Of a stretch of DNA of 64,000 bases, positions 11,038 through 48,629 are shown piece after piece. Position 1 is the stretch's first letter. Each line of letters opens with the position of its first letter. The translations under genes and the position numbers were made by a program. The DNA is from Lotus japonicus. Lineage: Eukaryota; Streptophyta; Magnoliopsida; Fabales; Fabaceae. Below the pieces are notes generated by a model, which saw nothing but the letters and a program-made list of their open reading frames with translations, did no database searches and had not been told where the DNA came from. The stretch lies in the NCBI RefSeq assembly GCF_012489685.1, contig NC_080042.1:56463069-56527068 (forward strand), read 5' to 3'.

Positions 11038-11043
11038 AGTTTT

Positions 11044-23277: not shown

Positions 23278-23390
23278 CGACTCCTACGAATGCTCACCAA
23301 AACTCAAGAACTAACGAAATGTCTCACAAAAAACCAGAGAATTTCTCCTTCAATTCACGATCCACGTAGTCTGGGAATCAAAATTTATCG

Positions 23391-23411
23391 ATCCCCACAG
23401 ACGGCGCCAAA
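23391..23411 (-). other. Primer-binding site of element B
   Basis: Directly inside the 5' LTR, the minus strand reads TTTGGCGCCGTCTGTGGGG. Position and TGGCGCC start fit a primer-binding site; the tRNA is not assigned. Confidence 0.75.
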
Positions 23412-23731
23412 TGTTCCGGTCAAGAACATAGAATCAAGGCATGGTGCCTAGAGTGTGTGGAGTGTGATCGGAAATCTTTGAGAGATGAACTCCTAACTAT
23501 TTAGAGAGAAAAAATATAACTGAATTTCAATGTGATTATTGCCAAATGAGCTAAGAGTCCCTTACAATTGGTAATTGTCCCCTATTTATAGATTTGGGGT
23601 TGGGCCTTTGTGCCTTTAATCTGTCTAAATGGGCCGATTGGGCCTTGGGGAGAGCGGCCCAAGGTCCAGGCATGTTCCGCGCCTAAGGCTGAGTCTCCTG
23701 GGCGAGGGACCCTGTGGTCTCGCCCAGTCCA
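23412..23731 (-). repeat. 5' LTR of element B
   Basis: 320 bp, matching 7227-7546 over its full length; followed by target duplication AAAAC (23732-23736). Confidence 0.9.
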
Positions 23732-27382: not shown

Positions 27383-27387
27383 CATCC
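27383..27387. other. Target-site duplication of element D, left copy
   Basis: CATCC here is repeated at 41360-41364, directly after the right LTR. Confidence 0.95.
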
Positions 27388-28171
27388 TGTTGGCCCAATA
27401 TTTTGGCCCAAGAAAGAAAAACGCATTCGGCCCAAAAATACCTAAGGTAGTCGAATTCGGACTAAGGAAAGGAAAAAGAAAATGCACCAAGTTCATGAGG
27501 CAGCCGAATTCGACAATAGTGATTATTGCTAAACGCAGGCACATGTAACACGTGCCGCATTGACCAAGTCAGATTCTCACCACGTTAGTCGAAAACGTGG
27601 CCAAGAAACGGTTGAGGCAGTTGAAGAACACAACCCCCACCACTACGCATGGAACTTCCGGAGCAAGTATCAGATCGTGGGGAATCAGACCCACTAACCC
27701 GTCCAACAAGGAAGAAAACCGCCAAGGACACGCAGGACATGGAGCTCTATAAATAGGAAAATCCGATTCAGAAAAAAGGGTTCCCAACTCAAACTCTGAA
27801 AAATTCACCAGAAAGCTCTAATGTCCGCATCAATGAGACTCAAGGAGCAAAGCGTGATGATGGAGGAGTACGTTGCAGAACCAGCATTTTAGTTTTTGTG
27901 CATGAAGCTTGTTAATTTCCAGCTCTTTTGTGTAGTTTCCTGTCGAATTCCATATTCCTGATAGTGTTCATGTTATTTTGATTTGTCTGACTTCATGTAA
28001 TTGATCCTTATGTAATTAAATCCAGTTATCTTTTGAGCCGATCATCATTGTCGAAAACCACTAACTCACACATGACACTTTGGCAAGACGTTTTCTCAAA
28101 AGGACCCTGAAATCTAAACTTCCTTTAGTCGAACTAAGAGGATATTTGTTTACCAAAAATCAGTGTAAACA
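27388..28171 (+). repeat. 5' LTR of element D
   Basis: 784 bp from TGTTGGCCC to GTGTAAACA. The TATA box CTATAAATA lies at 27748-27756, giving a presumptive transcript start about 30 bases on. Confidence 0.96.
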
Positions 28172-28193
28172 AATTGGCACGCCCAGTGGGACC
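28172..28193 (+). other. Primer-binding site of element D
   Basis: AATTGGCACGCCCAGTGGGA and following bases directly abut the LTR and are shared with element A. I could not assign the tRNA. Confidence 0.78.
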
Positions 28194-28294
28194 GTTTTTG
28201 TGAAAACTAAGTTTTACAGAAGCGTTTTGTGTGTTTGGTCTATTGCATGATATCTGGTATTTGTTACTTGCCTTGATTGTGATTTACGTTTTAT

Positions 28295-31048
28295 ATGCAC
28301 CTGAGAAGTGGTAAGACTATAAGCATGGCAAGCAATCGAGGAAGAACCTCCCCCCAAGGGTCTAACGTGGGTAATCAGAGCAGCCCTGGGGGAAGTAGTG
28401 GTAACAATAACGAAGAAGTGTCCACTGGGATGGGGCCTGGCACCACTATGCCAACCCAGAACGTGGCAATGTCTGCAGTTGCGGAAATGCCTGTATCTAC
28501 ATCAGTGCAGGCACAAATTGTTCCAACGGTTACAAGAGGAGATATGCCTTATGGTATGCCTATGTCTGTAATGCAAGGCATACAGGGCACATATTCGACA
28601 TTCCCCGAGAATGTTCCACCATTTAGCATACCCCCCTTTGGGGCAAATGGAACAATGTTGAACTTAGGGAGTCAAGTTAGCCCTCCTGGCCCTATCCCTG
28701 GGTCCAGTTCACAAATTTATTTGTCTACAGGTATGAACACTGGTTCACTTCAAGCCATTAGGCAGCAAGTAGATGATAGTAACCATGAAATGGTTAACAT
28801 GCTATCTCGTCAGATAGGTGAAATAATTAACCCTGTGCTCCAAAATAATGTTGTCAATAATCAGCATTTGGCACGTCAGATGGATCGTTTGGCTACAGCC
28901 CTGGGGGCACCAGTCGAAATGCAACCAGCACCAGGGATTAACCAAATCCCATTGCCTATTCATGCTCCTGCCCCTGTGCGTTATCAAGCGCCACAACACC
29001 AAGATATGGGGGCAAACCCTTTGTTTAGGGGAAACGAGGCGGTGCAGCCACCATTGCACAATGTGTATATGGTGAACAGGGAAGAACACGCTGATGGTGT
29101 GCTAGAAAGAATTCGACATCAGAATGTTGGGGGGCAGCAAAATGTTGCTGCTGTAGTGGAACAATTGTTGAACCAACATGGCTTCAACGTGGGTTTCGCG
29201 AATAGACCCCATTTTGTGTCGGCCTTTACAGAGGAAGTTCTCGAATCAGAACTTCCTCGAGGCTGGAAGGTCCCCAAATTCACTAAGTTCTCTAGGGATT
29301 CAGGAGAGTCTACTGTAGAACACATAGCCATGTACCAAATCGAAGCAGGGGATTTAGCCATCAATGAAAATTTAAAAATGAAGTACTTCCCGAGTTCTTT
29401 AACTAAGAATGCATTTACCTGGTTCACCACCCTCGCTCCTAGGTCAGTCCATACATGGGCCCAGTTGGAAAGAATTTTCCATGAGCAATTCTTTAGGGGA
29501 GAGTGCAAAGTGAGTTTGAAAGACTTGGCTAGTGTCAAAAGAAAGCCAGCAGAATCCATTGATGATTATCTAAACAGGTTTAGGATGCTTAAATCTCGAT
29601 GTTTCACTCATGTCCCTGAACATGAGTTAGTGGTCTTAGCCGCTGGTGGTCTGGAGTATTCTATCAGGAAGAAAATCGATACCCAGTACATTCGAGATAT
29701 GTCTCTTCTCGCAGACAGAGTGAGGCATATCGAATTACTAAAGGCTGAAAAGTCTGAAGAAAGGGCCAAGACTACTAAGTGGCCAAAGAAGGAAAAAATA
29801 GCGTACATAGACACTGACCCAGTGTGTCAAAGTCCATGTGTTTATCGAGAAGTCCCTACAGACGTCGACCTAAGTGATGTCAATCTGGCTGAACTCCAGC
29901 CAGGCGATCCTTATGTTTGTAAAGCATTAAAACCATATGAAAACAAACTCGGGGAGGAAAACCCCAAGAACACGATTCCTGCTGTAAAAACTTATACTTT
30001 TGATGTGACTAAATGTGATGCAATTTATGATATACTTGTGTCTGATGGTTTGCTTGTGGTCCCTAAAGACCAAAAACTTCCTTCTCCTGAACAAAGGAAA
30101 GAGAAGAAATACTGCAAATATCATAACTTTTTTGGTCATTGGACCTCACAGTGTGTTCGTTTCAGGGACCTTGTGCAGGGGGCATTGGATTCAGGAATAC
30201 TCAAGTATGATGAAAAAGCCAAAGGCCAAATGAAGATTGACTCTGACCCATTGCAAGTAGCTGAGGCCAACTATGTAGAGCCTTTCTACATTGGCATGGT
30301 CGACATTTCTGAAAAGCTAGATCTGGGCTTGACACTTGGAGAAGCAAAGGAGGAAAACATTGCTGTCGAAGAGCCAGAGGTCGAGAAAGAGGTGAGCTTA
30401 GAGGAGGTTTACCCTAAGGCCAGAGAAACTCTTGTTGAGTTTCTGTCCCGGAGCAAAGATGGCGAGAAGGAAGTCATGCTGTGCCCTCGATGCAGCGCCG
30501 TTTTCGACAAGTCTGCAGCCAAAGCCTACCAAGATTCTGAAATGAAAAGGCATTATCAGAACAAAGTGCCTGTGTCTAGGAGGTTGAAATATCCCCATGA
30601 GGAGTGGGTTGAGAGAGGCCAGGAACTCGATGGCCATAGAGGCCAGAAGTCAAAGAATAAAGACAAGACTTACGTCCCTGATGCTGGGTTGCCAAAAAAC
30701 CAATGGTTCAGGCCAGCACCTCCAAGGCCAAAACAACACCAGAAGTGGCAGAAAATCGACCTGGGCCAGGGATCCTCTTACATCAACAATTCCCGTGTGT
30801 CGCGAAGCTATTCCTATGGCTCTGGGAACTACTATACTCCTGAGCAAATGACCAGAACTCAGTTCAGACGCTTCTTGAGGAAGAGGAAAGCTAAAAGGGA
30901 AAGAGGTGGCAAGTTCCGTTCACTATGGGACATAAAGCCAGAAGATAACCCTCGCAATGAACCTAGTGTGGCGTCGATTATCAATCAACTGGACCACGCC
31001 ATTAAACAAGGAACGATTGGCGAAGGAAAAGGGGAAAGACGCTGTTGA
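28295..31048 (+). CDS. gag: gag polyprotein of element D
   Basis: An open frame of 917 codons starting MHLRSGKT. The first 280 residues are Gln/Pro/Asn-rich and low in complexity. The capsid domain lies at about 320-470 (GWKVPKFTKFS, FPSSLTKNAFTWFTTLAP, TWAQLERIFHEQFF, SIDDYLNRFRMLKSRC). A Cys/His nucleocapsid-like patch (CKYHNFFGHWTSQC) is near residue 605 and a second Cys pair (CPRCSAVF) near 730. The C-terminus is basic. Gag would assemble the particle that packages element RNA. Compared with the copy in element A it lacks the nonsense codon. A one-base shift near its end (31000-31048) separates it from the protease frame; that could be programmed or a mutation. Confidence 0.92.
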   Translation: MHLRSGKTISMASNRGRTSPQGSNVGNQSSPGGSSGNNNEEVSTGMGPGTTMPTQNVAMSAVAEMPVSTSVQAQIVPTVTRGDMPYGMPMSVMQGIQGTYSTFPENVPPFSIPPFGANGTMLNLGSQVSPPGPIPGSSSQIYLSTGMNTGSLQAIRQQVDDSNHEMVNMLSRQIGEIINPVLQNNVVNNQHLARQMDRLATALGAPVEMQPAPGINQIPLPIHAPAPVRYQAPQHQDMGANPLFRGNEAVQPPLHNVYMVNREEHADGVLERIRHQNVGGQQNVAAVVEQLLNQHGFNVGFANRPHFVSAFTEEVLESELPRGWKVPKFTKFSRDSGESTVEHIAMYQIEAGDLAINENLKMKYFPSSLTKNAFTWFTTLAPRSVHTWAQLERIFHEQFFRGECKVSLKDLASVKRKPAESIDDYLNRFRMLKSRCFTHVPEHELVVLAAGGLEYSIRKKIDTQYIRDMSLLADRVRHIELLKAEKSEERAKTTKWPKKEKIAYIDTDPVCQSPCVYREVPTDVDLSDVNLAELQPGDPYVCKALKPYENKLGEENPKNTIPAVKTYTFDVTKCDAIYDILVSDGLLVVPKDQKLPSPEQRKEKKYCKYHNFFGHWTSQCVRFRDLVQGALDSGILKYDEKAKGQMKIDSDPLQVAEANYVEPFYIGMVDISEKLDLGLTLGEAKEENIAVEEPEVEKEVSLEEVYPKARETLVEFLSRSKDGEKEVMLCPRCSAVFDKSAAKAYQDSEMKRHYQNKVPVSRRLKYPHEEWVERGQELDGHRGQKSKNKDKTYVPDAGLPKNQWFRPAPPRPKQHQKWQKIDLGQGSSYINNSRVSRSYSYGSGNYYTPEQMTRTQFRRFLRKRKAKRERGGKFRSLWDIKPEDNPRNEPSVASIINQLDHAIKQGTIGEGKGERRC

Positions 31049-31928
31049 AGATGAGGATGAAGATATGCTCGAAGATTTCGATGACAGTGATGGAGAAGAC
31101 CTCAACATCATTTGCATAGTGTCTATCTTACCTGCTGAATTCGACAGGATCTCAGAGGTCACAGAAAGTGAAGAAGATTACTATGTCGAGGAAGAGCCAG
31201 ATAATAACCCTTTGTGTTATTATGTGATGCAGAGAGGATCTGTTGAGGATGAGAGAGCTGTTTTCCAGAGGCCAACCGAGCAAATGAAGAGCCATTTGAA
31301 GCCACTATTTGTTTGGGCTAAAGTCGAAGAGAAAGGAGTTAACAAAGTCCTTGTCGACGGAGGGGCTGCAATCAACCTGATGCCTGGGTTTATGCTCAAA
31401 AAGTTGGGTAAAACTGAAGCAGATTTAATCCCACATGATATGGTACTTTCTGATTACGAAGGGAAGACAGGTTCTTCCCTGGGGGCAATCATGCTGAATA
31501 TAACCGTAGGAACGGTGGCCCGCTCCACATTGTTCATTGTGGTCCCTTCAAAGGCCAATTACAATTTTCTGCTGGGTAGAGAATGGATTCACGGCGTGGG
31601 GGCAGTTCCCTAGACTTTGCACCAACGTATATCTATTTGGAAGGCTGATGGGGTCGTCGAAAATGTAAAAGCAGATCAAAGCTACTATCTAGCAGAAACA
31701 GGCTATGTTGGTAAAAAGAATTTTGAGAAGAGCCTGGCCACAATTGCTCCTTTGGACACAGTGGCTAATCAGTACTTCAACCCATACTCAGAGTACCCAG
31801 TGACATTGGATCCCATCCGGGGACTAAACCTCAATGAAGCATGCAAACCTGATGCCATGAGTGGATGGCACAGCGATGAAGAAAAAGATGCCACTACTGA
31901 GTGGCAAACCAGTGGTAAGGATGATTAA
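31024..31928 (+). pseudogene. pro: Protease region of element D pol
   Basis: In the frame overlapping the end of gag, an acidic stretch (EDEDEDMLEDFDDSDGED) precedes an aspartic protease. Its motifs are LVDGGAAINLMPGFML, with DGGA where DTGA/DSGA is usual, and the flap-side NFLLGREWIHGVGAVP. A stop at 31611-31613 interrupts; a second open stretch continues to 31928 (WKADGVVENVKADQ). The protease would cut Gag-Pol. The DGGA spelling may be normal for this family (the decayed relative at 55030-55643 keeps similar surroundings), but the stop breaks this copy. Confidence 0.82.
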
Positions 31929-33110
31929 TTCGAGCATAGCTCGAATTTCGGCTTACGCAGCCGAGAACAAAATAAGAACGGCCTTAGAGGCCGAAAGAAT
32001 GGCCAAAGAAATGGCTACTGATGAAGCTAATGTCTCAATTCTGCCTGTCGAAATGACATCTCAGGAGGAGGCAACAATGAATAAGGATAACACGCGCTTG
32101 GAAGAAGACGAGCAGAGTGTCGAAGAATTTGAAGATCTCCGTAATTTAAGGCTGGATTGCATCTACGATGATAGCCCATTGGGTTTCGAAAAGCCAGCGA
32201 TCGATATTTCCAAGAAAATGGAAGCACAGGACCCTTTGGAAGAAGTGGACTTGGGTGATGGCTCAGAAAAGAAGCCAACATACATCAGTGCTCTTATTGA
32301 CCCAGAGTTAAAAGATAGGATGGTGAAATTACTCAAAGAGTTCAAAAACTGTTTTGCTTGGGATTATGATGAAATGCCAGGACTGAGTTGAGAACTGGTA
32401 GAATTGCAGTTACCCATCAAAGAAGATAAGAAACCAGTCAAGCAATTACCTAGGAGGTTCCATCCAAACATGTTAGTAAAAATCAAAGAAGAAATCGAAA
32501 GGCTCCTCAGGTGCAAGTTTATCAGGACAGCTCGATATGTGGATTGGTTAGCCAACGTGGTCCCAGTAATCAAGAAGAATGGAAAGATGAGGGTTTGTAT
32601 CGACTTTCGTGATCTCAATGCTGCCACTCCAAAAGATGAGTATCACATGCCTATTGCTGAAATGATGGTGGATTCCGCTGCTGGTCACGAATACTTAAGC
32701 TTGTTGGATGGTTATTCAGGCTACAACCAAATCTTCATAGCAGAAGAAGATGTGTCGAAGACAGCTTTTCGATGTCCTGGTGCCTTGGGGACATATGAGT
32801 GGGTGGTCATGCCATTTGGGTTGAAAAACGCTGGTGCGACCTACCAAAGGGTAATGAATACCATTTTTCATGATTTTATTGAAACTTTCATGCAGGTCTA
32901 CATTGATGGCATATTGTGGTGAAATCCCCATCAAGGGATGACCATTTATCCCATCTAAGGAAATCCTTTGAGAGGATGAGGAAATATGGCTTAAAGATGA
33001 ACCCCCTTAAATGTGCCTTTGGTGTTATTGCAGGTGATTTTTTGGGTTTTGTGGTGCATAAAAAGGGCATCGAGATCAACAAAAACAAAGCTAAAGCCAT
33101 TCTCTTGTGT
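31929..33110 (+). pseudogene. Reverse transcriptase of element D, inactivated
   Basis: The RT leader (FAWDYDEMPGLS) ends in TGA at about 32389-32391. The next frame carries the fingers and palm: VKQLPRRFHPNM, NVVPVIKKNGKMRVCIDFRDLN, YSGYNQIFIAEEDVSKTAF, MPFGLKNAGATYQRVMN. The catalytic YIDD box reads YIDG (about 32898-32909), losing the second Asp, and is followed by a small insertion and TGA. The frame then shifts into SFERMRKYGLKMNPLKCAFGV and GDFLGFVVHKKGIEINKNKAKAI. At about 33100-33110 it is fused, out of frame, to sequence from just before RNase H; the RT thumb/connection is deleted. The domain cannot be active. Confidence 0.92.
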
Positions 33111-35094
33111 AAAGCTGAAATATTATATAAAGCCAATCGATGTAATGGTTTTTTCTCATTATGATATAATAAAGCACATGTTATCCAAACTAATCTTGCA
33201 TAGTCGAATTGGTAAATGGGCTTTGGCCCTAACCGAATATTCACTAACTTATGCCCCATTAAAAGCAATTAAGGGGCAAGCAGTTGCTGATTTCTTAGCA
33301 GATCATACTATGCCTAAAGAAATCGTAACTTACGTGGGCATACAGCCTTGGAAGTTATATTTCGACGGTTCCAGCCATAAGAATGGAACCGGAATCGGGA
33401 TGTTCATCATGTCCCCGCAAGGCATCCCCACTAAATTCAAATTTAGGATCAAGGATAATTGCTCGAACAATGAAGTTGAGTATGAGGCATTGATATCGGG
33501 CCTCGAGATCTTGCTAGCTCTGGGGGCAAAGAACGTTGTCGTAAAAGGAGATTCCGAGTTGGTGGTAAAGCAGCTCACCAAAGAATACAAGTGCGTTAGC
33601 GAGCATCTAGCCAAATATTATGTAAAAGCAAACAATTTGTTGGCTAAATTCGACGAGGTCGGAATAGGTCATGTTCCTAGAATAAAGAACCAAGAAGCCA
33701 ATGAATTGGCGCAGATTGCTTCTGGGTATATGATAGATAGGCTAAAGTTGACAGAGCTAATTAAGATCAAAGAAAAGCTGAGCCCTTCGGATCTCGACAT
33801 TATGGTCATTGATAACCTAACCCCTAACGATTGGAGAAAGCCAATTGTCGAGTACCTGCAGAACCCAGTAGGGTCAACTGATAGAAAAGTCAAGTACAGG
33901 GCTCTAAGTTACACCATCTTAGGCAACGAGTTGTTCAAAAAGAACGTCGACGGCACATTGTTGAAATGTTTAAGCGAGGACGACGCATTTATAGCTGTAT
34001 CAGGTACTCACGATGGCCTGTGTGGTGCTCACCAAGCAGGGGCCAAAATGAAATGGATTCTATTCAGGAAAGGTTTGTATTGGCCAACTATCATGAAAGA
34101 TTGCATTGAATATGCAAAAGGCTGTCAAGATTGTCAAAAACATTCAGGAATCCAGCACGTGCCAGCTAGCGAATTGCACTCTATTATCAAGCCATGGCCT
34201 TTTAGGGGATGGGCAATAGACTTAATTGGCGAAATTCACCCACCCTCATCAAAGCAGCATAGATATATTATTGTGGCAGTCGACTATTTCACTAAATGGG
34301 TCGAAGCCATTCCACTACCAAACGTGACACAAGAAACGGTAATCGAGTTTATACAAAACCATATTGTGTATCGATTTGGATTACCAGAGTCCATCACGAC
34401 AGACCAAGGCACAGTGTTTGTGGGACGCAAAGTGGCAGCCTTTGCAGAATCCTGGGGCATCAAGCTTTTAACCTCGACCCCTTACTACGCTCAGGCTAAT
34501 GGCCAAGTAGAAGCAGCCAATAAAATTCTAATAAGCTTAATCAAGAAGCATGTGGGTCGAAAACCAAAAAGATGGCATGAGTCGTTAAGCCAAGTCCTGT
34601 GGGCTTACCGGAATTCACCAAGGGAAGCGACAGGAACAACGCCTTTTCGACTGGCCTATGGCCAAGAAGCCGTGCTACCCGCAGAAGTATATTTGCAATC
34701 GTGTCGAATTCAAAGACAAGAGGAAATTCCAAGTGAAGTTTACTGGAATATGATGCTAGATGAAATGGTTAACCTCGACGAAGAAAGGCTCTTGGCACTG
34801 GACGTTTTAACAAGGCAAAAGGATCGCATAGCTAAAGCATACAATAAAAAGGTTAAAGATCGATCTTTTAGTACAGGTGATTACGTGTGGAAAGTTATTC
34901 TCCCAATGGATAAAAAGGATAGAGCTTATGGGAAATGGACCCCCAATTGGGAAGGGCCATTTGCAGTCGAGAAAACGTTACCTATTAATGCTTACGTAAT
35001 TAAGGAATTGAGCAATCAGCGTCAATGTGTTACAATAAATGGCAAGTATTTAAAAGCATATAAGCCAATGTTGCACGAACTTAAAATCGAATGA
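33107..35094 (+). CDS. RNase H and integrase of element D
   Basis: An open frame to 35094; homology begins near 33107 (KLKYYIKPIDVMVFSHYDI), so the nominal frame start at 33013 is out-of-frame RT sequence. RNase H residues are visible as LYFDGSSHKNG, NNEVEYEALISGLE, VKGDSELV and NQEANELAQIA. Integrase has the HHCC-type zinc region (HDGLCGAHQAG to CQDCQKH), then the catalytic core with WAIDLIGE, TTDQGTVF and ANGQVEAANK (D, D, E), and a C-terminal GPFAVEKTLP-type domain. All catalytic acids are present. It lacks its own start and depends on a pol fusion that is broken upstream, so expression is doubtful. Confidence 0.9.
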
Positions 35095-35178
35095 AACATG
35101 AGCGTTAAAATTGCCAAATTATATTCATTGATCGGAAAAACATTACAGGTATGGCAAAATACAAATAAAACTAGAAGC

Positions 35179-35652
35179 CTAAAAGGGAAGAATGGCCCTG
35201 TATCCGTCATATCTAGCTTGCATGGGTGCTAATCGATCCACCAGCGCCACCATCTGGCCCTCAAGTCGAGCCTTCTTTTGACGAGCAACCAGGTCTTCAA
35301 GGGAGGCTGTAGATATCTCGACGGCTAATCGAACGAGACCTTCTGGATCTTGTTGATCCAAAGAGGCCTGGAGAAAATCGAATTTCTCCCTCCACTCATC
35401 TATTTGGTGTTCTTGAAAGAACACCATTACTGAAAGCTCCCGGAACTCTTCAAATAGAGGCTTGGCTTCCAAGAGGAGCCCCTGGAATTCCTGAAGAAGA
35501 ATTCTGACGCGCGCGATGATTGGCCTATGAAGCAGTTGATCAATGAGCTCTAAAAGCTCATCAAGGCCAGCAGAGGAGTCATACAGGTTCTGGAAAAGGT
35601 CATCCTGGAAAGCCAGGTCCCTGATACGATGAAGGATGATTCTGCTATCCAT
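35179..35652 (-). CDS. Antisense gene 2 of element D, small helical protein
   Basis: This is a 157-residue ORF on the strand opposite gag-pol, ending 85 bases from the integrase stop. The start MDSRIILHRIRDL at 35652 is preferred to an upstream ATG at 35745, because a TATA box (minus strand TATTATAAAT, 35744-35753) lies about 92 bases before 35652 and overlaps the upstream ATG. The protein is Leu/Glu/Arg-rich with heptad-like spacing (LDELLELIDQLLHRPI, LLLEAKPLFEEFRELS) and probably all-helical. No known domain is recognised. Convergent arrangement with pol could allow antisense overlap of 3' ends. The function is unknown. Confidence 0.7.
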   Translation of the reverse strand: MDSRIILHRIRDLAFQDDLFQNLYDSSAGLDELLELIDQLLHRPIIARVRILLQEFQGLLLEAKPLFEEFRELSVMVFFQEHQIDEWREKFDFLQASLDQQDPEGLVRLAVEISTASLEDLVARQKKARLEGQMVALVDRLAPMQARYDGYRAILPF

Positions 35653-35743
35653 GGTTAAGGGTGAAAGGTTCTTAGATCGCAGGAAGAAGATGAGAATGGA
35701 AGGAAGAAGAGTTGCTGGTGAAAGACGAGTAAAAAACGGCTCC

Positions 35744-35753
35744 ATTTATAATA
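35744..35753 (-). promoter_or_regulatory. TATA box of antisense gene 2
   Basis: The minus strand reads TATTATAAAT about 92 bases upstream of the ATG at 35652. Confidence 0.6.
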
Positions 35754-36160
35754 GGGAAGTAACAAACAGCCGCATTAATGCAAGCATGCAGTTACCAAAG
35801 CGTTAGCCAAACACGGCAAGCCACGTCAGCCACCACCACAAGTGGAGGAAGTTCTTAAATCGTTGAACGAGAACGTGATAAAAGCGTTATAAATTATCGT
35901 GGTTTCCAAGGAAATTTAGAAGGTGAAAGGTTGCCAAGTTAAATGGTGTGAAACTCAACAATACAATGCAGGAAGTAATGCAACAAAGACTGAATCGACA
36001 ATAAAATGCAAATCGAGAAATAAAACATGTCGAGCATTGCCAATACAAATTCATTCATTAATCAGAAGTCGAACAGAGTTACAGGAATGATTGTCACAAA
36101 GTTGGCAACAAAGGCCACAATAGATCCATGGCCATTACAATAAAACAACAATTATGAAGC
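35754..36160. other. Spacer between the two antisense genes of element D
   Basis: No ORF is supported. It presumably holds the 3' UTR of the PMD gene and the upstream region of antisense gene 2. Confidence 0.6.
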
Positions 36161-39100
36161 CTAAATCCTCGACTTGAAGGCTTCAAGCTGAACCCCGGCA
36201 GCAGCAATCCTGGAATCCAAGCTTTGCTTCACGCGCCGCTCCGCTGCAACCTCTTTAGAAAGTTGAGCTGTTGATAACATCACATTTGTGCACTCGGCAG
36301 CAAGAGTATTCAGCCGGGAATTCACAGCTGGGCCTTCATCAATCAACATTGCCTTCTGCTTCTCTAGCCTCGCCACCTCCCTTTGAAGCTCGTCCAGTCG
36401 AGCATCAACACTTGACAACTCATCTGCTATAAGAGCTTTCCTAGCAGTCAGCTTCAGAACTTCATCCTTCGAAGGCAGGAGTCCATTGGTGTTGGAAGCC
36501 ACTTGTGCCTGCTTAGTCTCAATGAGTTGCTCCACCGCAATGGCTTTGTCAAGTGTGGCCAAGATATCGACCAAGAGAGTCTGAAGCTCGACGAGAGCAT
36601 CTGCTCGAATTTGGTCAAGTCGTTGGCCCAATAGGAAGGCAAGCAGCTCTTTAACCTCCTGGCCTAATCGAGGGTTAGCTCGAACCCCGTTGATAAAGCC
36701 CGCATCGAAAACCAGCCCTTTTAACTTCACAAAAGCCTCTTCAATCCGGCTATCGTCGGCCGCTCCACCAGACTGAGCAGTCTCAGTAGTTTCAGCTTGG
36801 CGTGGTGGAGACTCGAGATCTAAAGTACCATCGAAGCTCTGGAAGATGGAAAGAGGGTCCTCGACTAAAAGAGCACTGAGCCTCTCACCAGAAGTATGGG
36901 AAGAGGCAGCCGTCTTAGAGGAAGCTGAGCCTCCCTTAGCATGAGGAGAAAGCAAAGCGACCCTGGCACCTTGTTGAGGTTGCTGAGGAGAAGGTTGAGG
37001 CTGTTGGGGAGAAGCTTGAGGCTGTCGAGAGGAAGGTTCAGAATGAGTCGAGACCAGAACATCAGCCTTGGGAGGGGGCATCACACCAATCACTTGGTCA
37101 GGCTGAATGATTGGAGGCACTTGACCCTCACTACCCTGCACCTCATCATGTGGTACATTTTCTTCACGAGCAGGGGAAGGCATGTTCTGCATGTCCTGCG
37201 GAGGAAAATTAGAAAGGTTATCTCGACATTCTTTGGTATAATAGGGTTCACAACCAGGATGTTGCCAAGCAATTGGTTTCGAGTTAAAATAGAATGTCAG
37301 CTTGTCCCACACAGGGTCTGACTCAGTAGAGTCTAAACTCGAACTAGAGGACTCTAAACTGCTCGGAGAGCTAGACAGGACAACTGGTGGGGGTTTAGAA
37401 GAAAACCATGTGGCTCGAGGTACAGCCATTTTAGACATGCCAACCCTCTGAAGAATAAAAGTAAAAACGATTGAGAAAGAGGAAAAGAAAGCGAATTGAG
37501 ACGAGATGTGAGTTAATGATTCACCTTAGGGCCAGATTCTTTGAGAGGACTGGAGCTGGTCAAACTCTTGGAATGGTGGGAAGAGGAGCTGCCAGATTTA
37601 CGACTAGACCTCTTCCTGGAGGTCTTCTTGGCCAGAGCCATCTCGACAGGAATCAGTGTAGTACCTTGAAGCAGAGGGCTGGAAGCCTGCTGATCAACAC
37701 CTTGCTGCATTTCCTCGCGCTGACTGGCTGACTTAGCCGGGGAGGGATTTCCCACAGGAAGTTCACCAGCACCTTTAGCCCTTTTTTTGCTTGCAGAAGT
37801 GGTAGGGGTGGCCCCTCGTTTTCGACTCTGAAGACAAAAAACAAACGATCACAAAGATATACATGTCGAATAAAGGTCAAAGTTTCACAGGGTTCAGTAT
37901 TACCTTAGGCATCTTGAGCTTATCAGCTAGAGCAACATCATCTTCATCATCCTCAACTTCGACAGTAGCAGAAGTTACCCGAGGAGAGGCTTGAGAGGTC
38001 GGTCGCGGAATCGGCTCAGCTGCAAAAGGAAAACAAAGGAAAATCAAACCATAAGTATCGCGAAGATGCCAGGTCGAAATGATTACCTTGACCAATAAGC
38101 GTGCTTATCGATATGTGGTTGAAGATTTCAACCGGCACATGGAGAGGGTAATTCCATAGGTAACGCTTGGTCCAGGTCACCCGCTTCCGGGGGGGCAGTG
38201 CACTATGGTAAAAAATTTTGATACTCACATGATCAACCCACTTAGGAAGTACCACCGGAAAAGCCAAAGCATACTTACAAGTAGGCAGTGGTGGGAACCT
38301 AAAGCTTGTTTTTCGAATAATGAAAGAAAGACCATCCTCGTTAGAAGGGATGCTCAATCGGGTTTTCTTGGCTTTAGCTTCCCACATTTGCCTTAGAACT
38401 TGGGCTGCTTTGGCCACCGTTTCCTGAAGTCGAGGACCCGGAAAGTATACTACACCGAAGAATTGTTGAAAAGCGTTGATCTCAGATGTATGCATACCTT
38501 TGGTTTTCTTTGGGGCCTGCTTCTGCAAAAGAAAAATATTCGTTAAGCGCTGGAAGCAATCTTCAATTGGCTCCGAAATATCATGCCAATAAGCAGACCA
38601 CCACGCCTTAAACGCCTGAGTAACGTAAAAGGATGGAGTAAAACTGAAAGGACTAAGACCAAGCAGCTCCTCCTCGTTGTAGTAGCTAATGGTAGTGTCG
38701 AAAGCACTACGTTTGGTGATGGTACCAGGATAGAGGACGAGGGATTTGTCGAACAAGGTATTGGGCAAATCCTGGCTCAGCCCAAATTGTTGAGACACGA
38801 GCTGAGGATTGTACCCACAAAGAGTGAAATCATTACTGGCAAAGTTGATGGTCAGCACCCTGGGAGATAATATAGTCTGCCAAAGTTCGACTTGATGCTG
38901 AGAGAGGTTCTCTGAGCCAGGAAGATTGGGGTAAGAGTTCCTTAGCCACCGAGGGCCATAAGAAGGTTTGTGACACGGTGCAAAGCTCGAGCGGAAACGT
39001 TTCAGCTCGAAGAACATGGTAAGTACTTCTTAAAATCAGCTTCGAACGTGGAGGCATCATAAGGAGGAGTAAGGGCTTCAAGTCTGAAAGCATCAACCCT

Positions 39101-40107
39101 CGTGTTAGACACCACAGGAGGGGGTTCTTGGCTGGAAGAAACGATTTGAAAACCGCATTCATCCAAAGTTGAAGGAGCCAGAAATGACCAGCTGCATTCA
39201 AAGACGCAACCTTGGGATCTCGAATGTCGGCTATCGCCTCATTGATCATTTGGTAAAGATTGCCAAGCACAAGCCTAGCCATGGCGATAATTCGACCCTC
39301 ATGTAGCAGGTTGGCCAAAGGAAGAAGTTTAGCCGGAATCCTCAAGGATTTGGTGCAGAACACATAGGCAGAAAGCCAATACAACAGAAACGCGACATGC
39401 TCATCATCGGAGACTTCACCATCCTCGACGTAGTGATCCTTAATAAACTTGCTAAAAGCAATATTATCCGTCGGAATGGCAATAGGATTGGTGGGAGCAG
39501 CAGAGGAATGGTAATCATCACCCACCACCCAAAGGCCAGTAATGGCAGCAACATCAAGGAGAGTGGGAGAAAGCATCCCAAAGGGGACATGGAAGCTATT
39601 GGTAGACCGCTCCCAAAAGAAAAGAGAACTTAAAAGCATAGCAGGGTTGTAAGAAATCGGCAACCTCGACAACTGAATGAGGTCGAAAATTCCAGTGACT
39701 TTCCAATGCCCAGACTTACTGGCCTCCACTCTGTCGAGCCATTTCAGATAGGCTCCTTCACCAGCAGTAGGGTTAGGAGGCGCAGCCCTAAAAGTCCTTT
39801 TGGGATCTTTCAGAAAGGGCAAGCGGTAAGAAGGTCGAAATGCAAGAATAAGCTCATCCCCACGAACGCTGGGGTGAAACTGCTCATAATCCTCAGGAAG
39901 ACTGTTAGGCCTTCCCTTCTTCGCCTTCTTCAAAGGGCCTAAAATGGCACGTAAATTGCCATTCACAGAAATAGGAATAAATACCTGGGATTTCCAGATG
40001 GCCCGTTTCTCCACTTCGTACGGTGGGTCTGGAATGGGAGTGCGTTTGGCCTCATTCATCTCACACGCAGCGGCCAAGGGAATGACATTGTCGGAACTGG
40101 AAGCCAT
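36161..40107 (-). CDS. Antisense gene 1 of element D: plant mobile domain (PMD) protein with coiled-coil tail, four exons
   Basis: Exons on the minus strand are 40107-38087, 38019-37904, 37827-37525 and 37447-36161. The introns (67, 76 and 77 bp) are all GT-AG (CAAG/GTAATC, AAG/GTAATA and AAG/GTGAAT donors; TTGCAG, TTCAG and TTCAG acceptors). Phases 1, 0 and 0 keep the frame throughout. Exon 1 has PMD features (SSLFFWERSTNSFHVPFGM, TLLDVAAITGLWVVGDDY, DDEHVAFLLYWLSAYVFC, HFWLLQLWMNAVF) and continues as FFELKRFRSSFAPC to TKRYLWNYPLHVPVE. Two apparent frameshifts lie at about 39000-39160. Exons 2-3 are acidic then basic/Ser-rich (VEVEDDEDDVALADKLK; KKTSRKRSSRKSGSSSSHH). Exon 4 ends in a long coiled coil (LDELQREVARLEKQKAML). 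PMD proteins are known both as host genes (MAIN/MAIL1) and in transposons. The role here is unknown. Confidence 0.8.
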
Positions 40108-40240
40108 AGAAATGTTCAGAGAGCGCACCAGGAAAGCAAAGACCAAACGATTGAAGATGATTACAAGTAGAATCAGGCAAAAGCTTGAGTGTTTGAAAAC
40201 GGTAAAGCTTGCAGAGGGCCAACAATGGCGTATTTATAGG
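40108..40240 (-). promoter_or_regulatory. Promoter and 5' UTR of antisense gene 1
   Basis: The minus strand has a TATA box CCTATAAATA at 40231-40240, 124-134 bases before the ATG at 40105-40107. The leader between them has no other ATG in a long frame. This promoter lies inside the element but outside the LTR. Confidence 0.7.
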
Positions 40241-40575
40241 CAAATGAAGGGTCGGACGTGAAGCTGCATTATAGAACGGTGCATAAAATTTTTTTGAAAT
40301 CCAACGGTTATTTTATTATATAACCGCAAACCCTAACATAAAGGCTAGGAAAGGGTCATGATTACCCTAGAATAGAGACGGCAGACGACAGGCGAAGTCA
40401 GACGTCAAGGCTTCTGATTGGAGCAAAAGTCAAACGATAGGATCTCTGATGGGACCTGAAATCAGAAAGTGGAAAGTCGCGAACAGCCGTCAAGCTCCAT
40501 CGAAATACACGAGCAAAAAAATGCTTGATCCCTCCAAGGTCTGGTAGTCGAGAATCAACATTTTTGGGGGGCATC
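40241..40575 (+). other. Element D 3' end with polypurine tract
   Basis: Non-coding. The bases before the 3' LTR include a G-run (TTTTTGGGGGGCATC, 40561-40575), which probably serves as the polypurine tract. On the minus strand this is the upstream region of antisense gene 1. Confidence 0.6.
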
Positions 40576-41359
40576 TGTTGGCCCAATATTTTGGCCCAAG
40601 AAAGAAAAACGCATTCGGCCCAAAAATACCCAAGGTAGTCGAATTCGGACTAAGGAAAGGAAAAAGAAAATGCACCAAGTTCATGAGGCAGCCGAATTCG
40701 ACAATAGTGATTACTGCTAAACGCAGGCACATGTAACACGTGCCGCATTGACCAAGTCAGATTCTCACCACGTTAGTCGAAAACGTGGCCAAGAAACGGT
40801 TGAGGCAGTTGAAGAACACAACCCCCACCACTACGCATGGAACTTCCGGAGCAAGTATCAGATCGTGGGGAATCAGACCCACTAACCCGTCCAACAAGGA
40901 AGAAAACCGCCAAGGACACGCAGGACATGGAGCTCTATAAATAGGAAAATCCGATTCAGAAAAAAGGGTTCCCAACTCAAACTCTGAAAAATTCACCAGA
41001 AAGCTCTAATGTCCGCATCAATGAGACTCAAGGAGCAAAGCGTGATGATGGAGGAGTACGTTGCAGAACCAGCATTTTAGTTTTTGTGCATGAAGCTTGT
41101 TAATTTCCAGCTCTTTTGTGTAGTTTCCTGTCGAATTCCATATTCCTGATAGTGTTCATGTTATTTTGATTTGTCTGACTTCATGTAATTGATCCTTATG
41201 TAATTAAATCCAGTTATCTTTTGAGCCGATCATCATTGTCGAAAACCACTAACTCACACACGACACTTTGGCAAGACGTTTTCTCAAAAGGACCCTGAAA
41301 TCTAAACTTCCTTTAGTCGAACTAAGAGGATATTTGTTTACCAAAAATCAGTGTAAACA
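40576..41359 (+). repeat. 3' LTR of element D
   Basis: 784 bp, three base differences from the 5' LTR by my alignment (each T in the left copy, C in the right), followed by target duplication CATCC (41360-41364). Confidence 0.96.
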
Positions 41360-41364
41360 CATCC

Positions 41365-42618
41365 CACAGCAGCAAACAGCACAAAACAGCAGAGCACATT
41401 AGACCCGCATCAAAGCAGCATCAACACAGAAGCTGAGCGACAGCAGCAAAAACCTCGCAAAAACAGAAGCATCACAGCAGCAGCAGCTCAAAATGCCCCC
41501 AAGCAGCAACGCACAACCAACAGCAAACAGCAGCACCTCAAGCACAATAAATAATGTACTTTCACTCTGAATTGTCTCAGTTAAGTATAAAATTTGAAGT
41601 TTAAAGAATAATTTTAACAAATAATTGATTGACCTTATTTCTGTTTATTTTCCTTGGCAGATAAATAAGAGCTGCAAAAGTGATTTCTCGACATACATAA
41701 GAGGCAAAAACCAACTAATTGATTTAATGACCTTTAGTGCTATGTCAGCAAATTTCATGTGTTTTGATATCACTTGAGTGTAATGTAACCATACTTTAAC
41801 CTTAATTTTATAAGAACAATTTTATTCACATTTTATTTTAAAATGCAAGCTAACATCTGTTAGTACCCATACGAATAAATATCCAAATATAATCGTGATG
41901 AAGGTTAAATTGATTTGGGGTTTGCTTTGCAGTTTGCCCTCTCCTTTGTCATGCAATCTGCAACCAATAGAATGTTTTTCCTTACAAATTTTTTGGCTAG
42001 GTTTCATGCCAATTCCCAAAAAGAAAAACAGGGGTCCCTTCTTGGCTAGTGCATCCAATACTAGGAAAAGGAGAAAAAATCTTTTGGAATAAAGAAATTC
42101 CCACAAACTATATCTTTACAAGAAAAGAAATAATATTAATGATATAAAAAATGAAGAGAATCCCTAAAGATGCTGCTTCCAAGCTTCCTCTTTATGCTCT
42201 TCACTTTTCTCCTTATCTGTGTGAAGTGAGCAAGAATAATATTCTACATTGAACTATCTTATCTTCTTTCTCTCACATGAACTCACTCATTCAACTTTCA
42301 TCTATGGTTGACATGTTGGAAATTGGAACAACAACCTCCAAAAAAACATAAGCAACAGGGATTTATTGTCAGAACCATAGAAATTCTCTATACATGCACT
42401 GACAAACAACTATGTCTATGACATTTCTTGAATGATACAATACAGCAACTAGTCTAAGTACAAGTTTGGAAATTCTTCTACGGTTAACTCTAAAGCTAAA
42501 ATCAATTCAAGGGAAAAGCTTCAGTGAGTAGCTTCTACGTGTCATAATTGATTTTGAGGAAAATTAACTTGATACAAACATTCTATAAAATGTTGGCGAA
42601 AATGTTTCAAGCCCCTAC
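41365..42618. other. Flank between element D and the DUF761-like gene
   Basis: 41365-41545 is rich in CAGCAGC/CAGCA words (low complexity). The rest is AT-rich with no supported ORF; the part next to 42618 probably holds the 3' UTR of the minus-strand gene. Confidence 0.5.
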
Positions 42619-43092
42619 TTAATAACCCAATCTTTGGGCATAAATTTCTTTACTATTAGATTCATATGCCCTGTTTGATGTGCAGAAGAGTTCTTCTTTC
42701 CATCCTTTATTAATTTTCTCTATAAACTCTTCCACTCTTCTCCTCAGCTCATCATCCTCTTCCTCCACTTTTTCCTCTTCTTCATTTCTGTGATCTTCAT
42801 TGATTTGAGTTTCAATGTTGTCCGCTGGTTTTCCTTCTGTTTCTGCTTCCATCAAATGTGACACTTCTGCCACTTGTGACAATGATCCTTTATCTTCTTC
42901 CACTAGACACTTGAAGCTTGTTCCTTGCTTTTGATTTTCACCCACTGACACAAGGACTTCACTTTCTTGATGAACACTGATACTGGGCTTTAAGTCCAGT
43001 AGGATAATGACAATGATCAAATTGCAGCAGCAGAAAATGAATGCAGAGCTGGAAGCAGCTTGAGTGACAAGATCCAGTACAAAACCTAACAT
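42619..43092 (-). CDS. Small host protein, N-terminal membrane segment and C-terminal DUF761-like motif
   Basis: An intact single-exon frame of 157 residues starting MLGFVLDLVTQAASS at 43092 (the frame also extends upstream without an ATG). Residues about 15-35 are hydrophobic (FIFCCCNLIIVIILL), a likely membrane anchor. The middle is acidic and Glu-rich. The C-terminus has DELRRRVEEFIEKINKGWKEEL, resembling the DUF761 motif of small plant proteins, which usually sits at the C-terminal end. A TATA-like TTTAAATA (minus strand, about 43200-43208) lies a little over 100 bases upstream. It carries no disabling changes and is probably a real gene; its function is unknown. Confidence 0.72.
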   Translation of the reverse strand: MLGFVLDLVTQAASSSAFIFCCCNLIIVIILLDLKPSISVHQESEVLVSVGENQKQGTSFKCLVEEDKGSLSQVAEVSHLMEAETEGKPADNIETQINEDHRNEEEEKVEEEDDELRRRVEEFIEKINKGWKEELFCTSNRAYESNSKEIYAQRLGY

Positions 43093-45213
43093 GGTTGTGA
43101 ACAATTAAGAAACAAACACACAGAAGAATACCAAAGAGTTGGAGGAAAATGAGTGAGAACAAGAAGCAAGTAGCAACTGTATATGCAATTTGAAGATATT
43201 GAGGCCTATTTAAACCACTTTTGAGATAGATGCAAACGTGGAAAGTAGCTTTTTTTTTGGTAGAAAATTTTAAGGAGCTGTTGGTGAGGTGTGGTATGAA
43301 AGCTAATCGAATCCAATACAATATACATTTGTATAATGAATGATTGGTGTATTAATATATTTAATGGAAATGTATGTGAAAAGTTTCTTCCAACTGTGTG
43401 TAGGACTTTTTATTTCATTAATTAAATCAAAAGTCTCTTGTACTATACAAAGACCATCACATGGAGCTTTCTTGGCCACACCCAAGTCCCAAACACAACC
43501 TTCTATGTCATAACTTGACATCACCCACCAGAACTTTTACGAGGTTCCTACCCCTTATTGCTCAGTTTAATTTCTCAGCAGAGATTCATAGATCATTAAA
43601 TATATACTAGTAGAAAAAAAAATTGTAACTTAACACTTTGTATCTGTCAAAAACTGTCATAAAAATGAGTTTTTAGAGTAGTAGTTATTATCGAGTGGTA
43701 TGCAAATCTTTATCATTATTTTATCCGTCATAATTGGTTAACACTATTTTTTATTGACACCAGAAATTTATGTCAGTTTTTTACGCTCATGAAATGCAGA
43801 ACTATTATTTTGTAAATCTAAAATGTGTGATAAGTCATAAAATGACATAAATTACATGTGTCGTTGCTACATAAGTGGTGTCAAGCAACTTTTTGTTATT
43901 TTATAGTCAAGGGCCTCATGTCATGACCGATATGAACAAAAACCAAAAGAAACTATAGATGGATGGAGATTTATGATGTGGTTGAAGATCATGAGATTTT
44001 TCACTGTGATCCACTGAAAGTGACTAAGTACACATTGTTTCATGCAAGAAAATTGGAGTGTTGTTATGTTAAATGTTACCTTGAAAATGTCACCAATGAT
44101 GTTCACAGCTTGTCTCTCATTGGTTGTGCTGATAGTTTTATGTGACCCAAAGAAAATAACTTTTTTTTTTAAAAGCCACCGAAAAGAACATGATAGAGCA
44201 AGAACAAAAATGTCTATTTCTCTTGAACATCATCAATGAATGTCCAGTTAACTCTATACTCGTTCAAACATCGTATTCTCTTTTTTCTTTTGATGCTGAA
44301 ATTCAAAGCCTTGGTAAGAAAAAAAAACTGTTCAATAAATAATGTTTACAATCGTAATTCAAAACTCTATGCAAAACACAGTTGTATTTTAGATATGAAT
44401 TTAATTAACATATATTAATAGTGTAAATATTATTTAAAATATGACATGTTAAGATGGTGAATCCTAATTGAATGTTCATATTTATACTGTGATTTTATCG
44501 TTATTAAACTGTTCAAATGTCTTAGGCATGTCATTCAACGTGCTATTCTCTCCGTGTTTCATTGTTACTAGTGTCCCTTCTCTCTGTTTTCTGTTTAAAT
44601 TATCTTCCTCTTTATTTTAATTACTTTTGGTGGATTAATCATGACTTATTCTTAATAACCGAGAGGGAACTAAAAAACAGTTCAAGTTCAAAGTTTCCCT
44701 TTTTCTTTATATAGCAAACTATGACCAAATTAGAATAGTACTTGGACGAACCAGCTAAGAAATTCAGTGAACAATTCAATGTATTGAAGTTTCTTGAAGT
44801 TAAAAAAAAAAAGTTGCTGCAACTTCTTGGTGTTTTCCCTGATTCTTACAACAGAAATTGTTAAAATCATTGTCCATTTTAATGTTGATGAATGAATCCA
44901 CACCCACCTACAATTATTCTTTATCCACCTTGGTTGACTTTTATTTGCAATAGATCTATGAGTCAACATATTATTTTGATTGCTTTCACATTTATTGACT
45001 CATTGTTTACAATTTCTCCAAATGTAAAACGGATCCGTAACTACAATGTAAGTTAGTCAATAATTGTTTATTTATTTCAATTTTGATGGTATTTTACTAT
45101 AAAAGTGGTACCATATACTTTAACAATAATGCTTTGTTCCAAACAATTTTCACATAGCAAGAGTAAGATAGAAAGGTATAAGAGAGAAATATGTAATAGC
45201 ATAAGTGATGTAA
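43093..45213. other. AT-rich intergenic stretch
   Basis: It contains the upstream region of the DUF761-like gene. From about 43605 to 43910 it is full of short GTCA/TGAC words, perhaps an old transposon. I see no convincing gene or RNA. Confidence 0.5.
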
Positions 45214-45235
45214 CACTACTAGAAAAACTAGTTTT

Positions 45236-45597
45236 CACATCGGGTATTTTTGAGTTTTAACATCGGTTTTTATCCGATGTAAACAATGTTGATGTGGTAT
45301 CTCATAACCTTTTCACATCGGGTTTATAACCGATGTGAAAGGTATACCTTTCACATCGGTTAAGTCAGCCAACCGATGTGAAATGTATACTTTTCACATC
45401 GGTTCTGTCATACAACCGATGTGAAATGTATACTTTTCACATCGGTTCTGTCATACAACCGATGTGAAATGTATACTTTTCACATCGGTTGTATAAAAAA
45501 CCGATGTGAAATGTGTATACTTTTCACATCAGTTAGCCAAAAAACCGATGTGAAAAGTATACTTTTCACATCGGTTAGACTAAAAACCGATGTGAAT
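45236..45597. repeat. Left subterminal inverted-repeat array of the CACTA element
   Basis: About eight units of TTTTCACATCGGTT spaced with their inverse AACCGATGTGAAA, giving hairpins with short loops such as CTGTCATAC. In the family such arrays bind transposase. Confidence 0.92.
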
Positions 45598-46055
45598 GCT
45601 CAACAATTTTTTTTTTCTTTTTTTTTTTTCCACACGAATTTGACCTGAATATACATATTTTTTTAATGAAAATTTATTAACATAAAAAGAGATCTTGAGA
45701 ACACACTCTCTCAAGTGAGTTAAACATCCAAGGTCCCAGCAAAAAAGAAAACATAATAGCCTAAAAGAACTAGAACAATTCAGCAATTCTAGTTCTTTAA
45801 ATGTAGTTAAACAGCAACTATGGAAAGGCAATAAATAAATGGACAGATTAGCAAGATGGAAGACTCTTGCAATGGCCGGAATAGTTTGTCGGAGCTAGAG
45901 TGGCTGGAAGAGTTCGCCGAATTCGTGAAGAGGAAGGTGTAAATCTGAGACGTCTGATAAATAACAAAAACATGGAAATGCAATAAATAAATGGACAGAT
46001 TAGCATTTTTTGAAATGAATGATGGAACATGAAAGTGGTAACCAAGTAAACTCAC

Positions 46056-46165
46056 CAATAGCAAAGTCAACTAGGCCAGCAGCTACCGCTAGAGCTGAAC
46101 CACTTGAAGAACCTCCAGGAATGCAAGACGACAACAGAGGATTGGTTGGTATCCCAATCAGTTTC
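46056..46165 (-). pseudogene. Captured amidase (AMI1/Toc64-like) exon fragment
   Basis: The minus strand encodes GIPTNPLLSSCIPGGSSSGS followed by ALAVAAGLVDFAIG. This is the amidase-signature Gly/Ser-rich core; the version with NP upstream and LVDF downstream is closest to AMI1/Toc64-type amidases. It ends at a donor-like G/GTGAGT at 46056/46055, so intron sequence was captured with it. The 5' limit is uncertain. It is only a fragment. Confidence 0.75.
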
Positions 46166-47244
46166 TTGTACAGGGGCACAAGTACCAATCAGTTAGGAAA
46201 CTGACACTAACAATAGAACAATAAAGCCACAAATCAATACTAACATGTAAAATTTTCTTGTCACTAACAAAGAAACCTGCACTAAGTAGCACTATATAAG
46301 ATATTAGATATATCAAGTCAATCAAGTCAATGACTAAATTCAAATAATATCTCAAAAACAGTTAGATTTTTACACTTGTATGGAGTTATATAGATGAAGC
46401 TTTCTTTCCTAGAAACTTGAGATTTATTATGGCTTTAGGTACTTATATATCATATGCTAGTATCTCACTTATAAAGGAATACATTTTCACTAAAACTCAA
46501 AAGCTACTACTGCCAAATGTCATGAATATGGAGAAGAATAGTCATAACTATCCCCTAAGTGCGTCAAAGAACAAAATGATTTCGGCATATTCTTGGCTTT
46601 GCCAAGTTCTTAAGAACAACACAGGAAAAAAAACCTAAGAGGTTGGTGCTCAGCTACTAAGCCAAATAACTTCTCTGATCTCTAAGCTATGGTGGAAATT
46701 AGAGAAACAGTAGCCCCAATAGCTAAATATATCTACATCCCCACCTCAAAGAATTCAAAAACATGGAAGTTTCACAACCATATTAATCATATCTTAAAGA
46801 AAATCAATATATATATATATATGTGTGTGTGTGTGCAGATGAATACAAAAAACTAATATAAAGATATAGATTATAAAGAAAACAAAATCAGTACTTTATT
46901 GATCCTATGAATGGAAAACAGGAGCATAAAAGGCTAAGAGGAGTATAAGGTTTGGTAGTGCTTTTCTTTGCGAATCTACTATTATAGTTTAGTTGTGTTC
47001 TTATAATTTTTCTGGTGAAATGAAAAAATTATTACTGGTATTATAATGAAGGTTGCTCTCTCAAGTCGGAAGGTAAGATATAATCACTATCCAAAGCCAC
47101 TTAAATCCCAAAAATCACATGTAGTAAAATCAGTGCTAAACACACGAAAATAGTCATTAAATGATAAATTTACTTTTCTTTCAACAACACAGTTAACAAC
47201 TGAAGCTGAAGTGTTTCTAAGAGAAAGTTAAATTGGTCTATTCA

Positions 47245-47305
47245 CCTCCAATGTTAATGACAGCATTTCCAGCAGTTCCGAAGAGACCAGGAGGAGCATC
47301 ACATC
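47245..47305 (-). pseudogene. Possible further captured exon, gene unknown
   Basis: The minus strand can be read as DAPPGLFGTAGNAVINIG followed by a GGTGAAT donor-like site. It looks exon-like between the two captured gene pieces, but I do not recognise the source. Confidence 0.3.
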
Positions 47306-47759
47306 ATATTTAGTCTCCAGAAGGCAGCTTTTAATATATTGGTGAACTTTGCTTAATCTTCTTAGCTTGAGGAAATCTGAACTACAAAACACAAAAGACA
47401 ATGAGAAGCAGTTATTTCCACAATGACAAAATCCATAGAGAACTAAATCAACAAACTTCAGCTTTCTCATTTATTTACATTGATCCATTGCAAACTTAAC
47501 TTTTCTACATAGATGCAGTAAACAATTGAAAATTAAAAACAGGAGTTAAATCAGGATGGCTAAAAGAGAATAAAAAATTGAAAAGCAAGAAGCAGCTAAC
47601 ACTGAAATTGTTAAATGACAGAAAAATGAAAAGCCAAATACAAAATGATGCAGGTAAACAGTTAAGGAGTGAGGGATGTGAATTTCTAAAATGACAATTG
47701 AGGCCTGCAACAATAAAAAAACTCAAGCAGCAATTTACTGCATATATCACCCATGATGT

Positions 47760-48629
<870 letters not shown>

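Follow-up and report, generated by a model that had tools for sequence, protein, structure and literature searches.

The stretch analyzed here, a 64,000-nucleotide window of Lotus japonicus (assembly GCF_012489685.1, contig NC_080042.1, positions 56,463,069 to 56,527,068 of the forward strand), carries a Ty3/gypsy long terminal repeat (LTR) retrotransposon, element D, with a plant mobile domain (PMD) gene on the strand opposite gag-pol. A first-pass annotation of the letters alone had placed a PMD gene on the antisense strand of a gypsy element, and this was borne out: the gene lies between the end of the integrase open reading frame (ORF) at 35094 and the start of the 3' LTR at 40576 (Table 1), antisense to gag-pol between pol and the 3' LTR, which is the position of the antisense ORFs termed aORF-3R. 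The PMD placed in exon 1 was confirmed by profile search (PF10536, E 9.4e-29; 101.1 bits, where the cut-off is 34.9). The first part of the exon covers profile positions 1-194; the later open part, corresponding to positions 276-346, scores 16.5 bits by itself and stays under the cut-off. An intact relative, P0001, matches positions 1-346 of 347 (E 5.7e-36), and the domain was matched in all 38 relatives of set A1. The proposed TATA box (TATAAATA at 40238) and start codon (ATG at 40107) are likewise in place; a scan for bacterial-type promoters and terminators, a method unsuited to a plant gene, gave results at chance level. On the minus strand of the gene the longest stop-free runs in the three frames are 466, 454 and 337 codons, against 130, 107 and 108 on the plus strand. 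In 300 dinucleotide shuffles the longest run over the three frames averaged 127.9 codons and never exceeded 277, which confirms that the antisense frames are open beyond chance.

Table 1. Coordinates, within the window, of element D, its antisense genes and the dispersed hexamer.
Feature	Position	Strand	Remarks
Element D	27388-41359	gag-pol on +	13,972 nt; Ty3/gypsy LTR retrotransposon
Target-site duplication CATCC (5 bp)	27383-27387 and 41360-41364		flanks element D
5' LTR	27388..28171	+	784 nt; 6 TTCGAC/GTCGAA sites inside
gag ORF	28295..31048	+	PF03732, E 2.9e-12
Reverse transcriptase piece	32404..32922	+	PF00078, E 5.3e-19; pol interrupted on either side
RNase H-like domain (RVT_3), then integrase	33013..35094	+	profile matches
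Second antisense ORF	35179..35652	-	157 aa; ATG 35652; TATAAAT at 35750
Exon 4	36161..37447	-	Pro-rich linker, then Pro-poor C-terminus
Intron 3, short form	37448..37524	-	77 nt, phase 0
Exon 3	37525..37827	-	basic, Ser-rich
Intron 2	37828..37903	-	76 nt, phase 0; 1 TTCGAC site
Exon 2	37904..38019	-	
Intron 1, short form	38020..38086	-	67 nt, phase 1; 1 TTCGAC site
Exon 1, long form	38087..40107	-	PMD and 137-codon extension used alternatively by relatives
Double frame change in exon 1 of this copy	39017..39125	-	
TATAAATA box of antisense gene	40231..40238	-	putative TATA box, by sequence alone
3' LTR	40576..41359	+	
35 dispersed TTCGAC/GTCGAA sites	27388..40575	both	

The gene had also been called complete, which in this copy it is not: exon 1 runs through three successive frames, changing near 39.12 kb and again near 39.02 kb. 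In a tblastn comparison of 11 selected relatives with the window, nine spanned this stretch (eight L. japonicus gene models and P0008), and since all nine are continuous there, it is the element D copy that is broken and not the others; the L. japonicus gene model LOC130748161 is one intact relative. An intron in place of the frame changes is ruled out, the same nine relatives coding straight through. The coiled coil claimed for the last exon did not fare well, as the heptad periodicity lacked significance (shuffles equalled or bettered it in 77 of 1000 cases for the last 115 residues and in 434 of 1000 for the last 195); the last 195 residues hold 3 prolines, and this Pro-poor end of the protein is probably helical. 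Stretches of exon 3 resemble what we take to be the pattern of a nuclear localization signal and are putative signals of that kind.

Splicing could be compared through the predicted gene models of relatives rather than through reads. The three introns first proposed, in phases 1, 0 and 0, have good GT-AG ends and are rich in T (0.45-0.48, against 0.28 and 0.31 in two adjoining exon-like stretches); their exact pattern was not confirmed, and relatives vary. Intron 1 has alternative donors at 38278 and 38497 that leave its acceptor (38020) and phase unchanged. The donor at 38497, 411 nt earlier, fits P0001, P0005, P0007 and P0088, as well as P0009 by protein sequence; P0121 fits the third in-phase donor, 38278; and P0008 reaches 38086, a donor through which P0004 reads. 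P0008 and P0009 share 532 identical residues and diverge exactly at the first donor (38497). The 411-nt stretch between the outer donors stays in frame, and of 121 retrieved proteins 9 match the peptide of this exon 1 extension (two of the nine only partly), Vicia and Cajanus entries among them. Intron 2 is identical in P0001 and P0005 and differs in P0007 and P0121, while in P0121 intron 3 uses the same donor with an acceptor about 252 nt further on (~37196), which the last two residues of P0001 fit too. P0005 and P0007 stop a few residues beyond the intron 3 donor. These models support the exon layout, with predicted alternative splice sites that remain in phase. The accompanying proposal, that antisense introns outlive retrotransposition, fits what was found: the copy behind P0004 still has intron 1, because the protein reads on into it, and the ends of P0005 and P0007 would fit a kept intron 3, the residues there being too few to align.

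The seven best relatives of exon 1 are L. japonicus gene models, the first of them 94% identical over 77% of the query, and PMD relatives are present in many legumes and in some other plants. Exon 4 found a single relative among 7991 candidates scored (P0121, 63% identity over 83%). Searches for DNA relatives returned none from viral contigs (0 in 7 stretches with a single-protein query, 0 in 20 with set A1) or genome contigs (0 in 46, set A1), both of them non-plant collections and uninformative for plants.

Element D itself is young. Over 785 aligned columns its LTRs show 3 differences, each a transition, and 0 gaps; at a commonly used substitution rate, 1.3e-8 per site per year, this corresponds to about 0.15 million years. 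The pol domains follow the order RVT_1, RVT_3, Integrase_H2C2, rve, and no match to a canonical RNase H was found in the broken pol; the element appears to be of Tat type, with RVT_3 as the putative additional RNase H ahead of the integrase. Despite the near-identical LTRs, pol is broken in several places, so that the copy looks non-autonomous although young. This combination (28172-35094) could reflect either mobilization in trans of a young non-autonomous copy or an assembly with indel errors. A partial relative of element D, comprising gag and part of an LTR and cut by the window edge, lies in minus orientation at 1-2673 and is 90% identical to it across 2662 aligned columns.

The predicted fold of the PMD, taken from models of the relatives, matches the DNA-bound crystal structure of VANC21, and so shares the VANC fold; VANC21, an anti-silencing protein, is the only clear fold match. 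A BFVD fold search gave nine matches up to E 10, none of them credible, and no other family was prominent in the VIA lists, which excludes nothing.

The second line of evidence is a short word. TTCGAC is the commonest 6-mer in 27388-40575, with 35 sites. Against expectations taken as the dinucleotide-shuffle mean of each region, it ranks first in the LTR (6 sites; mean 0.46, maximum 2 in 100 shuffles), where no 6-mer in 200 shuffled LTRs attained its score, and first in gag-pol (18 sites; mean 1.77, maximum 7 in 100); the antisense gene (36161-40107) has 10 (mean 1.34, maximum 4 in 100). There is 1 site in 35095-36160 (mean 0.39) and 0 upstream of the gene in 40108-40575 (mean 0.21), and over 35095-40575 as a whole the word ranks fourth, after CTCGAC (16; mean 1.75), TCGACA and CCACCA. 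The partial relative has 5 sites in 1-2381 (mean 0.71). Elsewhere there are 3 sites in 2382-27382 (mean 8.63), of which two belong to the partial relative, in its LTR part; 41365-64000 has 4 (mean 6.63), and the stretch 7224-23708 has 0 (mean 6.53). TTCGAC has accumulated in element D and is a candidate target of the PMD protein.

Coding sequence does not force the word, because the 22 sites in nine open pieces exceed all 500 synonymous-codon permutations (mean 7.28, maximum 17). The excess is clear in the integrase ORF (7 sites, 0/500) and in two pieces of exon 1 (3 each; 3/500 and 7/500), weak in gag (5 sites, 15/500) and two other pol pieces (2 and 1; 27/500 and 43/500), and absent from exon 3 (1 site, 171/500), exon 4 (0) and ORF2 (0); exon 4 has 7 CTCGAC instead (mean 2.09, 0/500). 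The preferred form is WNTTCGAC, weakly with W after. A or T stands two bases upstream at 33 of the 35 sites (24/26 coding, 9/9 non-coding; P 3.6e-7 from composition, 5.7e-8 from the bases ahead of TT), the strongest among 12 flanking positions examined; the same base is A or T at 19 of 23 CTCGAC, and at 17 of 32 TCGAC outside element D. In a comparison with the partial relative that involves small numbers, TTCGAC was kept at 6/6 sites one way and 6/7 the other, other CpG tetramers at 23/38 and 23/61, all 6-mers at 1451/2591, TCGA at 15/18 and 15/21 and TCGAC at only 7/11. The sites divide 23 to 12 between the strands, an excess that falls short of significance (P 0.09) and so fits a double-stranded site. 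Of the CpG tetramers in element D, 28% are TCGA, against 8% outside it in the window, while the remaining CpGs show stronger depletion inside the element than outside (observed/expected 0.44 vs. 0.58).

High 6-mer z-scores by themselves are not special in this window, since tandem repeats and low-complexity runs raise them in other blocks too; CATCGG, for instance, reaches 19.7 with 16 copies in 41365-48000. (A local repeat with self-matches at 45309-45596 probably makes CATCGG the top 6-mer there.) What sets TTCGAC apart is its dispersal across the LTR, gag-pol and the antisense gene, together with its flanking preference.

Because a DNA-binding, anti-silencing fold coincides with a short word piled up in the element that encodes it, we read the system as VANC-type: the PMD protein would act against silencing by binding DNA, with TTCGAC as its target, a reading to which we give just under an even chance. 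That the gene could act on silencing was originally a guess; the VANC21-like predicted fold and the element-wide motif may now be taken as computed support. The computed basis comprises the PMD, the exon layout, the frame changes, the fold match (from the relatives' models), the motif enrichment and the flanking preference. The differences from a VANC system are nonetheless real. The sites are dispersed, without tandem repeats, and 26 of the 35 fall in coding DNA, so that the tandem, non-coding arrangement associated with VANC is lacking. The PMD protein has no detectable sequence similarity to VANC/DUF1985: at E up to 10 the 38 relatives between them matched 21 families, and DUF1985 was none of these (the filters of that scan drop most matches above 0.1), and profile searches reached no VANC21 chain. 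We therefore do not file the protein as a member of the VANC family.

Chief among the alternatives is that this is an ordinary antisense accessory gene such as the Tat clade is known for, with Grande gene23 and the Retand aORF as parallels. Its nuclear protein would aid a late step of retrotransposition, perhaps by importing the pre-integration complex or directing it to its target; the likeness to VANC21 would then be ancestry only, and TTCGAC a binding site for that late step or for a host transcription factor. A nuclear DNA-binding protein is compatible with this as well, and the accessible part of a review describes Grande GENE23 as nuclear, with its own promoter, and suggests a role in retrotransposition (PMC7264820). 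It would not, however, predict a motif that runs across coding DNA with a preference two bases away, and the sole clear fold match is to an anti-silencing protein; we regard it as unlikely, though deserving of real weight.

Quite improbable, in our view, is a protein that mimics the host factors MAIN and MAIL1 and ties up their phosphatase partner PP7L, weakening silencing without binding element DNA. A review, in its accessible part, proposes that PMDs borne by transposable elements (TEs) counter silencing (PMC8616336), but mimicry leaves the accumulation of a DNA motif in the family unexplained. A shade less probable still is that the transcript matters and not the protein, pairing with genomic RNA and feeding small interfering RNA production, with the ORF a relic of a captured PMD gene. 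Regulation by double-stranded RNA from antisense aORF transcripts has been raised (PMC7264820, in the part accessible), and the ORF is broken in the element D copy; against this, relatives across legumes keep a protein of PMD length, and their alternative splice sites keep phase. Least probable is that TTCGAC serves at the RNA level, as GUCGAA in genomic RNA (a site for Gag or for packaging, say), independently of the PMD protein, since the excess of GTCGAA on the sense strand (23/35) is not significant and the upstream A/T preference emerges with both strands counted together, even if gag-pol does hold most of the sites.

If the PMD protein is indeed a VANC-type anti-silencing factor, intact copies of the element D family would carry the antisense, intron-bearing gene between integrase and the 3' LTR. 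Once expressed, it would yield a nuclear, sequence-specific DNA-binding protein whose PMD binds WNTTCGAC(W) in the manner of the DNA-bound part of VANC21. This motif would have built up in the family, reaching its highest density in the LTRs but extending over gag-pol and the antisense gene as well. Having entered the nucleus and bound its target, the protein would lift silencing, in cis and in trans, from copies of the family, with loss of methylation. The introns would persist because sense genomic RNA presents them as their complement. Element D, whose own copy of the gene would not give a full-length protein, would have to rely on intact siblings. A wider version is possible and more tentative, with the balance tilting somewhat against it: PMD and VANC would form one fold family of transposon-encoded, sequence-specific anti-silencing factors, of which the LTR element carries an alternatively spliced antisense version with self-seeded WNTTCGAC, and MAIN/MAIL1 would be domesticated members.

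Among neighboring features, the second antisense ORF had no homologue at E 0.001 or better among 83 candidates. An origin by duplication of exon 4 was rejected, since the likeness visible by eye lacks significance (BLASTP E 0.23; with different matrices and partners, between 51 and 415 of 2000 shuffles score as high). The 3' flanks of the two antisense genes are slightly alike (score 31 vs. 28 for the best of 200 shuffles; 18 vs. 17 over a wider stretch), and their promoters show no similarity (score 24, shuffle maximum 28). Two plus-strand ORFs elsewhere in the window, at 8568-9761 (E 5.6e-8) and 62006-63535 (E 3.3e-8), contain Transposase_28 (PF04195), a domain described as typical of Retand antisense ORFs in the accessible text of PMC11963269. 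Another, at 14664-15968 on the plus strand, combines Transposase_32 (PF20167, E 1.3e-33) with a long acidic run.

The PMD is found in host silencing factors as well as in many retrotransposons, and has been described as a domain of unknown function (PMC8616336, in the part available, which also suggested counter-silencing by TE-borne PMDs). The VANC21 match gives it a concrete, testable role, the binding of short DNA words, with TTCGAC as candidate word. If true, anti-silencing of the VANC type would extend from one group of DNA transposons to LTR retrotransposons, the host MAIN/MAIL1 pathway could plausibly have originated in a weapon against silencing, and a spliced gene placed antisense would illustrate a way for introns to survive in an element that passes through reverse transcription. 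A literature search of limited reach found no published report of the PMD-VANC fold link, of the TTCGAC motif or of spliced antisense genes in plant LTR elements.

The element D gene is nevertheless a variant of known elements, as the accessible portions of the literature establish both the antisense accessory genes of plant LTR elements (PMC7264820; PMC11963269) and the PMDs encoded by gypsy elements (PMC6317226; PMC5418596). The PMD-A1/A2 clades (Ikeda et al., 2017) likewise hold PF10536 proteins from Ogre/Tat-group Ty3/gypsy elements, and PMD proteins are given as present in 57% of Ogre elements (Neumann et al., 2019); the available parts of these descriptions make no mention of a spliced antisense gene or of a DNA motif. 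In the portions of the sources at hand, the aORF-3R of Grande (gene23), RIRE2, Retand and PvRetro13 share the placement of an antisense ORF between pol and the 3' LTR, but they have Transposase_28, SMC-like or no known domains, and no intron-bearing gene is described there; that of Grande has its own promoter and a nuclear protein. The HBZ gene of human T-cell leukemia virus type 1 (HTLV-1) and the APH genes are also spliced antisense regulators of LTR elements, nuclear in several cases, but they belong to animal retroviruses, are driven from the 3' LTR and lack a PMD. MAIN and MAIL1 are PMD proteins that act in TE silencing, yet they are host genes of the PMD-C clade and promote silencing. 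VANC21, the DUF1985-containing protein of the Arabidopsis transposon VANDAL21, resembles the element D protein in being transposon-encoded, in its predicted fold and in an accumulated short motif; VANDAL21, however, is a DNA transposon, and its motif, YAGTATTAY, often stands in tandem repeats of non-coding DNA, in contrast to the dispersed TTCGAC of element D.

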